From positions 1 to 64,000 of the forward strand of contig CASIAP010000007.1 in assembly GCA_949372645.1 (NCBI GenBank): 64,000 bases of DNA. Direction: 5' to 3'. The notes beneath the pieces are model-generated. The model had not been told where the DNA came from. It saw only the letters and a list, made by a program, of their open reading frames with translations, and did no database searches. Positions 885 to 6,110 of this stretch are shown here, piece after piece (positions within the stretch are counted from its first letter, which is position 1; each line of letters starts with the position of its first letter). Origin of the DNA: Candidatus Poseidoniaceae archaeon. GTDB lineage: Archaea; Thermoplasmatota; Poseidoniia; Poseidoniales; Poseidoniaceae. The position numbers were made by a program, and so were the translations under genes.

Positions 885-2999
885 ATGAAAACAAGAACAC
901 TAAAAACCACATTGCTCGTATTTTTAATCGCCACTGCCTCTCTTGCAGGTTGTATAGGAAGTGAAGATGAAAAAGAAACTCCTGATTTAGAAGATTTTGT
1001 CATCGCATACAGTGTGAAAGACGATTACACGAATGTCGATGAGAATCCTCAACGATTAGCCTCCTACTTGAGCGAAGAACTCAACATGGATGTTACACTT
1101 TACCCAATTGACTCCGAAGGCGCAGCTCTTGAAGCGCTTCGTTTCGGTAACGCAGACATGGCTTTCATGGATGGCGGTGCTGCTTGGGTCGGTTGGCAAC
1201 AATACGGCCTAGAAGCTCTCGCAGCAGATCAGAAATCTGATGGAAGAGCATATTACAGCGCTCATGCAGTTGTCTTGAAAGACTCTGAAATGGCAGCAGC
1301 ATACCTCGACAACGATTCAACAACTGATCCGTTTTCCCTTCTCGCAGGTAAGACCTCGTGCCATACTGGCTGGCTCAAATCCGCTGGGATGTTACTCCCA
1401 ATGGGCTTCCTTATTGGAAATGGATACGCCAATGTGATTGGTGATTCAGGTGATGTTGAATCACTCCGAGATACCATTACCAACTTCTTCAGTGAAGACT
1501 CAAGTATTCCTGATTCAGGAACTCCTTACTACTCCTACTCAGGAGCAGTCAAGTGTCTTACCGAAGGCGTTGGCGATGTCGCCTTTGCTAAGGATTCGAC
1601 CGTAGCTTCATACTGCGGTAACGACAACGCTACTGACAACCTCGATTGGTGTCTCCCTGAATCCGATTATATCTTGCTTCCTTCATATGGGAATGCTCCA
1701 TCACACCCAGTGATGTATAATCCAGACTTTATGACTTCAGAAACAATTACGAAAGTTCAAAATGCTTTGGTCGCAATGAAAGATTCAACAGAAGGGGCTT
1801 CAATTCTTTCAGATGTTCTTAACACACCTGCAATCTCTGCAACCAATGCTCTTGATCACCTAGGTTCATATGGAAACCTCATTGAAGATGTCCCAGGAAT
1901 CTCTGCATATTACAGCACGAAATTTTCGATTAATGAGACAGTAGCTCCTACTGTTTCGAACATTCGAATTGCTTTTGAATTGAAGGACGATTATACCAAT
2001 GCTGATGAAAACCCGCAAATTCTTGCTGATTACATCGCTGAACAAACTGGTGTTACTGTTACTTTGTATCCTGTCGCATCTGAAGGTGCCATTATTGAAG
2101 CTCTTCGCTTTGGCAACGTCGATATCGCCTTTATGGATGGAGGAGCCGCTTGGGTTGGCTGGAAAGAATACGGCCTTGCCTCGATGGCTGCAGACCAGAA
2201 GTCCGATGGACGAACCTATTACAACGCTCATGCAGTCGTTTTGAATGGGTCCGATATCGCTGAGGCTTATCTTGATAATGATTCAACAACCGATCCATTT
2301 GCATTGATGGCTGGAAAGACTTCCTGTCACACTGGATGGCTCAAATCAGCAGGAATGTTGCTGCCAATGGGTCACTTGATTTCCCAAGGCTATGCTCCAG
2401 TCGTTGGACCTCAGGATGATATTGAATCTCTTCGAGACACCATCCATGCTTTCTTTAACGAAAATGCAAGTATTCCTGATTCAGGAACTCCTTACTACTC
2501 CTACTCTGGAGCAGTCAAGTGCCTTACTGAGGGTGTTGGCGATGTAGCCTTTGCAAAGGATTCGACCGTAGCTTCGTACTGCGGTAATGACAACGCTTCT
2601 GACAACCTCGATTGGTGTTTGCCCGAATCGGATTACATCTTGCTTCCTTCGTATGGTGCAGCTCCATCACACCCTGTGATGTATAATCCAGCTCAACTTG
2701 ATGTTCAAACACGTACTGCGATTCTCAACGCATTGCTCTCATTGAATAATGAAATGTATTTGGAAAATTACACTATGCAGGGACAAACCTTCACTGGATG
2801 CTACAATACGGGTTCGCACATGGTCGACAGCACTTCCCCGCAAAACCAGTGTGGAGATCAAATTCTTCAGAATGTTCTCAACACACCAGGATTAGTTGAA
2901 GCAAACACCCAAGATCATCTTGGAAGCTACAGTAGCCTCATCAGTGCGATTCCAGGAATCTCTGCTTACTTCGATACCAAATTCGAAATTGCGGAATGA
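885..2999 (+). CDS. Bilobal transferrin-like Fe(III)-binding lipoprotein of an ABC importer
   Basis: This is a 704-residue secreted lipoprotein (hydrophobic leader, lipobox SLAGC, lipidated C23) made of two homologous lobes, about 38-350 and 359-704. Automatic annotation would say PhnD-like phosphonate-binding protein. However, each lobe shows animal-transferrin signatures: FMDGG (D96, D418), YYxAHAVVL (Y123/Y445), SCHTG (T161, T483), YSGAVKCL followed by GDVAFAKDST (Y218, Y540), and APSHPV (H274, H596). These match human transferrin D63, Y95, T120, Y188 and H249. C159-C224 and C244-C256, with C481-C546 and C566-C578 in lobe 2, match transferrin disulfides 118-194 and 227-241. The anion-site Arg124 is Lys (K165, K487). 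Lobe 2 carries an extra loop of about 40 residues with two Cys near its C-terminus. Downstream ATPase and permease genes and upstream DtxR-type boxes support ferric iron capture at the cell surface. The transferrin relation is strong; the substrate is inferred. Confidence 0.88.
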   Translation: MKTRTLKTTLLVFLIATASLAGCIGSEDEKETPDLEDFVIAYSVKDDYTNVDENPQRLASYLSEELNMDVTLYPIDSEGAALEALRFGNADMAFMDGGAAWVGWQQYGLEALAADQKSDGRAYYSAHAVVLKDSEMAAAYLDNDSTTDPFSLLAGKTSCHTGWLKSAGMLLPMGFLIGNGYANVIGDSGDVESLRDTITNFFSEDSSIPDSGTPYYSYSGAVKCLTEGVGDVAFAKDSTVASYCGNDNATDNLDWCLPESDYILLPSYGNAPSHPVMYNPDFMTSETITKVQNALVAMKDSTEGASILSDVLNTPAISATNALDHLGSYGNLIEDVPGISAYYSTKFSINETVAPTVSNIRIAFELKDDYTNADENPQILADYIAEQTGVTVTLYPVASEGAIIEALRFGNVDIAFMDGGAAWVGWKEYGLASMAADQKSDGRTYYNAHAVVLNGSDIAEAYLDNDSTTDPFALMAGKTSCHTGWLKSAGMLLPMGHLISQGYAPVVGPQDDIESLRDTIHAFFNENASIPDSGTPYYSYSGAVKCLTEGVGDVAFAKDSTVASYCGNDNASDNLDWCLPESDYILLPSYGAAPSHPVMYNPAQLDVQTRTAILNALLSLNNEMYLENYTMQGQTFTGCYNTGSHMVDSTSPQNQCGDQILQNVLNTPGLVEANTQDHLGSYSSLISAIPGISAYFDTKFEIAE

Positions 3000-3172: not shown

Positions 3173-3856
3173 ATGGCAGACTCGATACTTACTCTCAAGA
3201 ACCTGAGTGTCGGCTATGATGAACCGTTGATTACCAACATCAACGTGGAAGTATTTCCTGGCGAGATCATTGCGATTCTTGGCCCCTCTGGGATTGGGAA
3301 AACTACGCTAATCCGTACGATCTCAGGACTTGTACGACCCCTTTCAGGTTCTTTTGAATTAAAGGTCGAGAAGCGAGGTGGCTTAGGATATATCCCTCAG
3401 CGTTTGGGATTAGTCCGCCATGCAACAGTAGCACACAATGTTTCACTTGGTGCCCGGACGAGAATTGGGTTTTCCCTCAACATGTGGAAGGAGCGTTCTC
3501 AACGAACAATGGAAGCATTGCGTATGCTGGGAATCGCAGACAAATCAAATGAACCAGTCCGACGATTATCCGGTGGTCAACAACGTCGTGTCGCCACTGC
3601 TAGAACTTTGGCTCAGAGACCACAATTGATGCTGGCGGATGAATTTCTAGGTGAACTTGATCATTCGAATGTTGAAATTGTATTCAAAGCAGTACAGACA
3701 TTAGTCGAGAATGGAACGGCCGTCATTATGGTTGAACACCATGATGATAACGCTCAATTATTCGCCACTCGAATTTGGAATATCAAAGACGACACACTCG
3801 AAGACTTATCACTCGAACAGTGGAATAACCGTTCTCATGGTGGTGAAGAAGAGTGA
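3173..3856 (+). CDS. ABC transporter ATPase (PhnC-type) of the transferrin-linked importer
   Basis: This is the cytoplasmic ATPase of 227 residues that would power the importer. Walker A is GPSGIGKT (37-44), the Q-loop Gln is at 76 (YIPQR), the signature LSGGQ is at 132-136, Walker B is LMLADE (152-157) and the switch His is at 189-190. All catalytic elements are intact. Homology is to the PhnC/metal-type ATPases. Its stop overlaps the permease start by four bases (GTGA), so the two are translationally coupled. A 173-base gap holding a strong hairpin separates it from the binding-protein gene. Confidence 0.88.
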   Translation: MADSILTLKNLSVGYDEPLITNINVEVFPGEIIAILGPSGIGKTTLIRTISGLVRPLSGSFELKVEKRGGLGYIPQRLGLVRHATVAHNVSLGARTRIGFSLNMWKERSQRTMEALRMLGIADKSNEPVRRLSGGQQRRVATARTLAQRPQLMLADEFLGELDHSNVEIVFKAVQTLVENGTAVIMVEHHDDNAQLFATRIWNIKDDTLEDLSLEQWNNRSHGGEEE

Positions 3857-4716
3857 AGTATCGCCTTTTTGCAATCATATTCATCTTGCTCTTCTTGGCT
3901 TGGAATACGCTGAATGGTTTAATCGAAGGTGACTGGGGTCGACTTGAGGGTGGATTTGAAAACCTCTCTGTCTTTTTCTCTGAAAGTATGTGGCCTCCAA
4001 ATTGGAGTGTTCTTGAAGCACGTTCGTATCCAGTGTGCGAATCTGATATCGAGTTTTTTTGTTCTGTTGGCTATATTGGTATGATGGAAACCATCAAAAT
4101 TGCTTTTGTCGCTACTATTCTTGGTTTTATTGGTGCCTTATTCTTTTCATCTCTTGCAGCACGTAATCTTGTGCCTCTCTATGTTGCTATTCCAGTTCGA
4201 ATTTTACTCTCAGCAACCCGAAGTCTTCCAAGTCTCATTTGGGCGATTTTATTTGTTATTGTCATCGGCTTTGGACCTCTTTCAGGTGTTTTAGCAATGA
4301 CCTTCTACACGGTCGGCTATCTTGGTAAATTGCAATATGAAACCTTTGAAGGAATGGCCAATGATTCTTTGGAAGCCAGTCGTGCCATGGGTCTTTCTCG
4401 AAGCAGTATTTTACTGAATGTTGTGATTCCCGAAAACAGCAATCATCTCTTGAGCCAATTGATGTTTATGTTTGAATACAATGTTCGACATGGCACAGTC
4501 ATTGGAATAGTTGGTGCTGGAGGTATTGGTTATTACATCAGTACCTATCTCAAATTTCTTCAATATGAGAAAGTATTCGCACTCCTTATTTTGATCTTTG
4601 TTGTCGTTGTCATCATCGATTTACTCTCAATGATGGTTCGTTCGTTTGTGAATGATGAAGGAGATGTTCGACGTCCAACCTGGTTGAATCTTATTCTTAC
4701 ACCAAAGGAAAAGTAA
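3853..4716 (+). CDS. ABC transporter permease (PhnE-type) of the transferrin-linked importer
   Basis: This inner-membrane permease of 287 residues has five to six hydrophobic segments. The cytoplasmic EAA coupling loop is visible around residues 166-198, where EASRAMGLSRSS is followed by PENSN, and the next segment carries GIVGAGGIGYYIS, typical of PhnE-like permeases. It starts at GTG overlapping the ATPase stop. One permease gene suggests a homodimer. The PhnE resemblance does not fix the substrate: the binding protein and its operators point to iron rather than phosphonate. It is the last gene of the operon and ends 18 bases from a convergent gene. Confidence 0.87.
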   Translation: MKYRLFAIIFILLFLAWNTLNGLIEGDWGRLEGGFENLSVFFSESMWPPNWSVLEARSYPVCESDIEFFCSVGYIGMMETIKIAFVATILGFIGALFFSSLAARNLVPLYVAIPVRILLSATRSLPSLIWAILFVIVIGFGPLSGVLAMTFYTVGYLGKLQYETFEGMANDSLEASRAMGLSRSSILLNVVIPENSNHLLSQLMFMFEYNVRHGTVIGIVGAGGIGYYISTYLKFLQYEKVFALLILIFVVVVIIDLLSMMVRSFVNDEGDVRRPTWLNLILTPKEK

Positions 4717-5013: not shown

Positions 5014-6012
5014 TCAGTGAAGTGCAACCATTCTTCTGCAGCATTCTTCTGCATCAATGAAGCCGTCCAGTAAAGTATTAAGGGCCTTTGTGAATGGGAT
5101 TTCAATTCCTAAATCTACAGCTCTTTCGCCAAACATACGAGCCGCTCGAACGCCTTCAGCAACCATATGCATCTCCTCAAGTGCCTGCTCAATGGTGAGG
5201 CCAGTACCTAATTTTTCACCCATCGAACGGTTTCGCCCATGGGGGGAAGTTGCTGTGACATACAAATCACCAAGGCCAGCCGGGCCAAAAGCAACTTCTG
5301 CTTTTGCTCCAAGTTGAGGAAGTAAGATACAGCCTTCTTTGAATCCAGCCATGAAAATAGCAGCTTTGAGGTTGTCTCCTCCAAGAGTGCCAATTTGTTT
5401 CAATCCATCAACTAATCCGCAGGCAAGAGCAACGACATTCTTGAATGCCCCCCATAATTCTGCTCCAGCAGGATCTGCTGCAGGATGTAGAATGAATGTT
5501 TGTGTGGTCAAAGTTGTCGCCAAATGTTGTGCTACTGAGACATCTTCACTTGCAACTAGAGCCGTTGTCATAACTCCACTTGCAGCTTCTGGAGCAATTG
5601 TCGGCCCTGTAACTACGGCAAGTGTGTTACTTTTCCCAGCATCGTTTAATTTTTGTTGAATCGCTTCTGAAATCAACTTATTTCCATCAGCCAAACCTTT
5701 AGCTAAATCAAGCAATACATGGCCTGGGCGAAGGTGAGGGATGATTTTGTCGACCACTCCAAGAATAACGGAAGATGGCACTGCCAATACGATAATCTCT
5801 ACACCATCCAATGCTTCTTCGAGATGCATGGTCGCTTCAAGACCTTCCACTGGATGATCTGGGAGATATTTTGTGTTGACTGAATTCATGGTGATGGATT
5901 CGTAAACTTCCTGTTCTACAGTCCAACCTTTGACATGATGGTTATCTGCTAACCACATGCGAGCAATTGCAGTTCCCCAATTTCCTAAACCCAAAATCGC
6001 AATGTGTGCCAT
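5014..6012 (-). CDS. gpsA: NAD(P)-dependent glycerol-3-phosphate dehydrogenase
   Basis: The enzyme reduces dihydroxyacetone phosphate to sn-glycerol-3-phosphate in the cytoplasm. The N-terminal dinucleotide-binding motif GLGNWGTA follows the start directly. LAVPSSVI, the catalytic-Lys segment AFKNVVALACG and GPAGLGDLYVTATS follow in GpsA order. Length is about 332 residues, normal for the family. I take ATG 6012 (MAHIAILG) as the start; an in-frame ATG three codons earlier is possible. GpsA makes the bacterial/eukaryal glycerol enantiomer, not the G1P of usual archaeal lipids. Together with the acyltransferase at 29.8 kb this hints at unusual lipid chemistry. Confidence 0.93.
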   Translation of the reverse strand: MAHIAILGLGNWGTAIARMWLADNHHVKGWTVEQEVYESITMNSVNTKYLPDHPVEGLEATMHLEEALDGVEIIVLAVPSSVILGVVDKIIPHLRPGHVLLDLAKGLADGNKLISEAIQQKLNDAGKSNTLAVVTGPTIAPEAASGVMTTALVASEDVSVAQHLATTLTTQTFILHPAADPAGAELWGAFKNVVALACGLVDGLKQIGTLGGDNLKAAIFMAGFKEGCILLPQLGAKAEVAFGPAGLGDLYVTATSPHGRNRSMGEKLGTGLTIEQALEEMHMVAEGVRAARMFGERAVDLGIEIPFTKALNTLLDGFIDAEECCRRMVALH

Positions 6013-6110
6013 AGATACCAAGCTGAACGCCGCTCACTTTACTTATGTTAATTGCCACTCATCGGGGGTGCAAGGATGCGTTTTTGAATGGGGATGAGAG
6101 TCAGCAAACT

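Follow-up and report, generated by a model that had tools for sequence, protein, structure and literature searches.

Transferrins have long been thought to be kin of bacterial periplasmic binding proteins, and this kinship is usually argued via the ferric-binding protein FbpA. According to PMC9957567, the Fe(III) set of human transferrin consists of an Asp, two Tyr, and a His together with an anion. The ligands given there are Asp63, Tyr95, Tyr188, and His249, and Asp392, Tyr426, Tyr517, and His585, with Arg124 and Arg456 at the anion sites. A gene whose product resembles transferrins at these positions is present in a 64,000-nucleotide stretch of DNA (the window) from Candidatus Poseidoniaceae archaeon (assembly GCA_949372645.1, contig CASIAP010000007.1, positions 1 to 64,000 of the forward strand). 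The gene (885-2999, plus strand, ATG start) codes for a two-lobed, transferrin-like substrate-binding lipoprotein of 704 amino acids, and genes for an ATPase and a permease follow it. Comparison of sequences suggests that the three genes encode an iron-regulated ferric-iron importer of the ATP-binding cassette (ABC) type, a reading to which we give a probability of roughly 0.78.

Putative metal and anion site of the two lobes

The N-lobe is encoded at 990-1925 and the C-lobe at 1956-2984, both on the plus strand. Alignment A1 and lobe-profile matches support both lobes, and a structure model supports the N-lobe as well. Alignment A1 has 35 rows, consisting of the window protein and 34 of the 53 relatives that a close-relative search over all genome contigs returned; the other 19 were omitted because they were partial, one-lobed, near copies, or not needed. 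Six residues of the N-lobe are invariant in all 35 rows, namely D96 (codon 1170-1172), Y124 (1254-1256), T161 (1365-1367), K165 (1377-1379), Y218 (1536-1538), and H274 (1704-1706). The same is true of D418 (2136-2138), Y446 (2220-2222), T483 (2331-2333), K487 (2343-2345), Y540 (2502-2504), and H596 (2670-2672) in the C-lobe. In a HMMER alignment, D96, Y124, T161, Y218, and H274 stand opposite Asp60, Tyr92, Thr117, Tyr192, and His253 of the lactoferrin chain 1b1x, and K165 stands opposite Arg121 (residue numbers of 1b1x were counted from the printed alignment numbering). We take Asp60, Tyr92, Tyr192, and His253 to be the lactoferrin ligands. The aligned ligand in each YY pair is the second Tyr. 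In other words, all first-shell transferrin ligands have a match in both lobes and in register with 1b1x. An earlier note on this DNA had claimed an ordered Asp-Tyr-Tyr-His set and an anion-site Thr in each lobe, and both claims are borne out, the Thr being T161 and T483.

Ten Cys residues (159, 224, 244, 256, 481, 546, 566, 578, 639, and 656) are also invariant in the 35 rows. By the transferrin register, they would pair as 159/224 and 244/256 in the N-lobe and as 481/546 and 566/578 in the C-lobe, with 639/656 as an extra pair of the C-lobe. The two transferrin-equivalent disulfide pairs per lobe that the earlier note had proposed are consistent with this conservation. Four PhnD-type proteins placed in the same columns (E. 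coli PhnD and three plasmid-borne proteins) have Gly at the Asp column, Gly or Ala at the Thr column, and no equivalents of Cys159 and Cys224. The E. coli PhnD row also does not have the Tyr-Tyr-His set.

Family models place the protein with two families at once. The hidden Markov model of Pfam PF00405 (Transferrin) matches with 140 bits (cut-off 20.3), in four stretches rather than over its full length, and that of PF12974 (Phosphonate-bd) with 151.2 bits (cut-off 27), covering the lobe in one piece. The protein reaches neither the cut-off of TIGR01098 for phosphonate-type substrate-binding proteins (99.4 vs 112.05 bits) nor that of the full PhnD model TIGR03431 (67.2 vs 261.1 bits). The earlier note had suggested a search with both Pfam models and had staked its claim on the outcome; both match over cut-off, and the clear preference for PhnD that would have spoken against a transferrin did not appear. 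A search of PDB sequences with the window protein returned 100 chains, and the best 60 are all of the transferrin family (top E-value 6.7e-29). A profile built from 57 lobes returned 102 chains, and the best 60 are again all of that family (top E-value 1.2e-37), one of them being an inhibitor of carbonic anhydrase by name; chains beyond the best 60 may include PhnD-type chains. FbpA does not occur among the best 60 of these 100 and 102 matches or among the best 50 of 1525 fold matches.

Does this likeness arise by chance? Control searches rule this out. PF00405 has no match at E <= 0.01 in the four PhnD-type proteins, and a PhnD-type protein of Roseibium has 20 matches in the PDB, none of which is a transferrin. 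Of 14 named control genomes, none has a PF00405 match, although 12 have one of PF12974, 10 of these over cut-off. We call the window protein transferrin-like, as the binding protein in an ABC importer, and do not file it as a transferrin, because the anion-site Arg is missing and the PF12974 cut-off is also passed. One of the protein names in use at NCBI is 'PhnD/SsuA/transferrin family substrate-binding protein'.

Operator boxes and links to iron

Evidence for the regulation of the operon comes from two palindromes that lie 33 bp apart and directly 5' of the start codon. They were absent from the earlier note and are new in this analysis. The distal box TTTAGGGCAACCTAAA (821-836) contains the IdeR/DtxR half-site TTAGGNNNNCCTAA at 822-835, and the proximal box TTTAGGGCACCCTAAA (854-869), whose position is kept in relatives, contains it at 855-868. 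At up to 3 mismatches from TTTAGGGCACCCTAAA, the two boxes are the only places in the window, where 0.33 would be expected. In the literature, TTAGGNNNNCCTAA has been proposed as the IdeR/DtxR consensus (PMC8464063), and TTAGGTTAGCCTAACCTAA is given as that of DtxR (PMC7762939). The 1,808,715-base assembly has exactly two TTAGGNNNNCCTAA sites, both before the transferrin-like gene; the same motif read backwards, as a control, has six. The boxes have the form of an IdeR/DtxR-type operator and, judged by their sequence, point to iron. One DtxR-family gene (PF01325) was found in the same genome on another contig.

A looser core box, [TA]AGG-N4-CCTA at most 150 nt upstream of the gene, is present before 45 of 49 genes (48 relatives and the window). 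Five relatives lie outside that set. Two of them have the box (L064 and L068), L069 has none, and the genes of L048 and L056 start at a contig edge, which brings the total to 47 of the 52 homologues examined. The remaining 561,537 nt in the loci of the 49 genes hold 14 further core boxes. Of 19 more homologous genes, one from Natronococcus and 18 from other genomes, 13 have a box. How would the boxes act? A TATA-like CATATAC lies between the two boxes, so transcription would start near the second box, and it is plausible from the sequence that a bound regulator represses by blocking the start. Bacterial-type promoters (6 vs a shuffled mean of 6.6) and terminators (4 vs 3.0) were rejected.

A link between the box and iron that is independent of transferrin likeness comes from FEA1-related genes. 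In one genome, a one-lobed copy of the transferrin-like gene lies beside a ferritin-domain gene and near a gene for a FEA1-related lipoprotein (PF07692; NF038033 358.9 bits, cut-off 250) that has the box 60 nt upstream. PF07692 has 17 matches in 15 of the 59 relatives' genomes, and all 6 FEA1 loci that were fetched have a TAGG-N4-CCTA box, at a distance of about 27-61 nt from the gene on its upstream side. FEA-domain proteins are iron-assimilation proteins according to PMC7972479, and the presence of the box before their genes therefore ties the box to iron. The gene at L098:7271-8503 codes for a FEA1-related lipoprotein (NF038033), and L103-L108 are likewise FEA1-related. The same operator thus appears to precede genes for another iron-uptake lipoprotein, one that is unrelated to the transferrin-like protein.

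In the window's own genome, the two lobes are the only matches of PF12974. PhnJ, FeoB_C, Peripla_BP_2, and Fea1 were not found in this genome, and these absences are weak because it is 83.66% complete.

Operon, relatives, and origin of the lobes

The lipoprotein gene begins with a signal peptide that ends in the lipobox LAGC (885-953, plus strand; codon of Cys23 at 951-953), whose G22 and C23 do not vary in any of the 35 rows of A1. Downstream on the same strand are genes for a PhnC-like ABC transporter ATPase (3173-3856) and a PhnE-type ABC permease (3853-4716; TIGR01097 217.6 bits, cut-off 216.7), both identified by family models. A lipoprotein of the substrate-binding kind with an adjoining ATPase and permease makes up an ABC importer, and the earlier note had read the locus correctly in this respect. 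The next gene (5014-6021), presumably gpsA-like, has the opposite orientation, and many relatives have it next to the operon too. Within the window gene, DNA identity between the lobes is 73% for 1091-1390 vs 2057-2356 and 89% for 1485-1725 vs 2451-2691, and this difference suggests that the latter part has been exchanged between the lobes.

An ATPase and a permease lie downstream in 45 of 53 loci, and five other loci end at a contig edge. The earlier note had proposed to look for orthologs in other Poseidoniales; PF00405 matches occur in 125 of the 145 genomes of this order, and in 25 of the 33 that are at least 90% complete. A sample of the phylum has it in 73 of 292 genomes. By our count, 67 of these belong to the order (81 genomes), 3 to class-mates (6 genomes), and 3 to the rest (205 genomes). 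A 2.06-Mb contig that bears the title Marine Group II chromosome (CM001443.1, locus L030) has the gene as well, which makes a binning artefact unlikely. Beyond Thermoplasmatota the search covered plasmids, phages, viral contigs, and the 14 control genomes, and the all-contig search was for close relatives only. No relative was found in viral contigs or phages, and carriage by viruses was rejected on this ground.

Relatives outside the order differ in arrangement. In the class-mate loci L094, L095, and L096, the gene is divergent from its neighbor, and three boxes lie between the two. The neighbor belongs to the DtxR family by Pfam in L094 and L095, and in L096 it starts alike. Two one-lobed relatives from outside the order (L072 and L093) have all four ligands, and in a third one-lobed relative (L077) the second Tyr is replaced by Asn and the Lys by Gly. 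On a plasmid of Natronococcus occultus, a DtxR-family regulator is followed by a relative split over two frames and then by an ATPase and phnE. In this relative, Ser replaces the Asp and Ala replaces the first Cys. HTG, the second Tyr, and PSH are retained, and no box precedes the gene, which lies at L081:3932-4956 and is missing from the PLSDB gene table.

Some copies have altered sites. Site losses are known from certain animal transferrins, and two decayed two-lobed copies (L098 from 8806 and L099:8202-10250) recall these. In both, the N-lobe has no His, the C-lobe has neither of the two Tyr nor the His, and the C-lobe of L098 is also without the Asp. Two-lobed paralogues at L097:5494-7698 (the L011 gene), L073, and L079 have MEGG in place of MDGG in the C-lobe, so that Glu replaces Asp as the first ligand. 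A further group is made up of plasmid operons (L110:498-5293, L111, and L112) that code for a cytochrome c peroxidase (hypothetical in L112), a PhnD-like protein, an ATPase, and PhnE. Their PhnD-like proteins have both Tyr and the His and no Asp, and mntR lies nearby in L110. These operons are possibly another metal importer filed under phosphonate.

The predicted structure of a single N-lobe is good, with a predicted local distance difference test score (pLDDT) of 86.3 and a predicted template modeling score (pTM) of 0.80. The Asp immediately precedes a helix, the first Tyr lies within a strand, the Thr and Lys come ahead of a helix, the second Tyr opens a helix, and the His is flanked by two strands. 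In the model, these places are compatible with the hinge and cleft of transferrins. Among the best 50 of 1525 Foldseek matches to the N-lobe model, human melanotransferrin comes first (8.9e-15), and ArrX, PtxB, AioX, and many transferrins follow at nearly equal E-values.

Are the two lobes of the archaeal and the animal proteins inherited from one two-lobed ancestor? The two lactoferrin lobes group together in the tree (support 100/99). In the approximately unbiased test (p-AU), a grouping of the lactoferrin C-lobe with the archaeal C-lobes was rejected (p-AU 0.0035), as was that of the lactoferrin N-lobe with the archaeal N-lobes plus L096_1 (p-AU 0.024), a one-lobed row nested among archaeal N-lobes. 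A shared ancestral two-lobed protein is thus ruled out, and two-lobedness arose separately in archaea and animals. Lactoferrin stands among archaeal rows in both trees. An arrangement that unites all archaeal rows and moves lactoferrin out of them, next to the rows of the PhnD type, was not rejected (p-AU 0.129), and the position of lactoferrin is uncertain, as parts of one lactoferrin were used and its branches are long. The earlier note had called the protein a living intermediate. That description holds insofar as the lobe model is close to PtxB/ArrX-type proteins and transferrins alike. It fails for the two-lobed state, which is not shared by ancestry, and one-lobed archaeal relatives have the same ligands; by the tree, lactoferrin may belong either inside or beside the archaeal lobes.

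One possibility, offered tentatively and at somewhat below even odds, is that eukaryotic transferrins derive from a prokaryotic substrate-binding protein of the PhnD family and that the archaeal lipoproteins are their closest surviving kin. The full transferrin iron site would then have been in use already within an iron-repressed ABC importer, in both one- and two-lobed forms, and two-lobedness would have evolved twice.

Competing explanations and known systems

The proposed importer would work as follows. The lipoprotein would be anchored on the outer face of the cell membrane, and each lobe would close around a single Fe(III) coordinated by Asp, two Tyr, His, and a synergistic anion, which may be carbonate or possibly phosphate. 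From the lobes the metal would move on to the permease, with the ATPase as the driving force. When internal Fe(II) is ample, a DtxR-family repressor would bind the boxes and turn the operon off. The protein would have arisen within the PhnD-like (PF12974) family of binding proteins by gaining the complete transferrin-type metal site, and the duplication into two lobes would have followed within archaea.

Several observations weigh against this model. Fe(III) binding and the iron response are predicted from sequence comparison, and regulators of the DtxR family can respond to Mn besides Fe. The Arg of the transferrin anion site is replaced in both lobes by the invariant Lys165/Lys487. PF12974, at 151 bits, slightly outscores PF00405, at 140, and its match runs unbroken across the lobe, so that ligands of the phosphonate or phosphate type may also fit. 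Three plasmid-borne PhnD-type rows carry both Tyr and the His without the Asp or Thr, and part of the ligand set is therefore not unique to iron binding as far as is known. The model of the full two-lobe protein is poor (pLDDT 69.5, pTM 0.49). No box lies upstream of the gene in L037, L045, L047, L058, and L069 or in 6 of the 19 further homologous genes, and the box counts come from relatives that are kin rather than independent samples. L045 and L047 are without ATPase and permease, L067 is without ATPase, and the 83.66% completeness of the genome makes gene absences weak.

How do other explanations fare? With the same lobes, the substrate might instead be a metal other than iron, for instance Mn, or else an Fe-chelate or ferric phosphate. 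The Mn sensors within the DtxR family, a Roseibium PhnD-like operon near mntR, the P-oxyanions bound by PF12974 kin, which suggest that the anion could be phosphate, and the replacement of Arg by Lys would fit such a substrate. However, Asp, two Tyr, and His with an anion are the Fe(III) set of transferrin as described in PMC9957567, the same box precedes genes of FEA1-related lipoproteins, and a ferritin-domain gene lies beside one of the one-lobed copies, which makes another substrate rather unlikely. An ordinary PhnD-type importer of phosphonate, phosphite, or phosphate, in which the transferrin residues would be incidental, is very unlikely. It would account for the PF12974 similarity across the whole lobe, the permease over the PhnE cut-off, the PhnC-like ATPase, the high rank of PtxB and ArrX in the fold search, and the two Tyr and His of the three plasmid proteins. 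A phosphonate function is nevertheless not the leading one because of the PhnD model scores, the IdeR/DtxR-type boxes, and the failure to find PhnJ. Furthermore, the four PhnD-type proteins have no PF00405 match, no Asp or Thr, and neither of the two tested Cys, and the one of them searched against the PDB has no transferrin match.

The capture of a eukaryotic transferrin gene by a marine archaeon and its insertion into a PhnCE operon would explain why animal transferrins are the closest solved sequences, and the tree leaves archaeal and lactoferrin rows unseparated. It is hardly probable given the distribution of PF00405, which is frequent in the order, present in half of the class-mates, and rare elsewhere in the phylum sample. 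The split relative on the haloarchaeal plasmid, the one-lobed relatives outside the order, and the PF12974 similarity along the entire lobe argue against it as well.

If the ferric-iron importer is real, a prokaryotic protein with the complete first-shell ligands of transferrin would sit in a transport operon, and the origin of transferrins could be tested by structure and binding. It would provide a concrete microbial relative for asking where animal transferrins came from and an iron-uptake route for archaea that are very abundant in the surface ocean. The best family names of the importer point to phosphonate transport. In this genome (84% complete; FeoB_C, Peripla_BP_2, and FEA1 not found), it may be the main recognizable iron importer. 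Among the matches listed in open-licence literature, there was no earlier description of an archaeal transferrin, of its origin, or of a Marine Group II phosphonate or iron importer; two Marine Group II papers that matched 'transferrin' contained only the word 'transferring'.

The importer resembles several known systems in part. Phytotransferrins and other FEA1-domain proteins (PF07692) would share with it a role in marine iron assimilation, and FEA1-related archaeal lipoproteins share its box. However, they belong to another Pfam family and are described in PMC7972479 as convergent functional analogues of transferrins. FbpA-type ferric-binding proteins would be similar in the use of Fe(III) and a synergistic anion within an ABC importer, whereas class III FbpA uses three Tyr according to PMC10182148. 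Binding proteins of the PhnD/PtxB type (PF12974, TIGR01098, TIGR03431) have the same fold and a similar operon with a PhnC-like ATPase and PhnE, and the archaeal protein passes the cut-off of PF12974. It falls below those of TIGR01098 and TIGR03431, and the four PhnD-type proteins examined do not have the Asp, the Thr, or Cys159/224. Animal transferrins and lactoferrins (PF00405) differ from the archaeal protein, which is a lipoprotein of an ABC operon, has Lys in place of the anion-site Arg, is matched by PF00405 in pieces, and duplicated its lobes independently. They have in common with it the Asp-Tyr-Tyr-His set and anion-site Thr in register, the equivalent Cys pairs, two lobes, and the stretches CHTG...SAG and YSGAxKCL...GDVAF.

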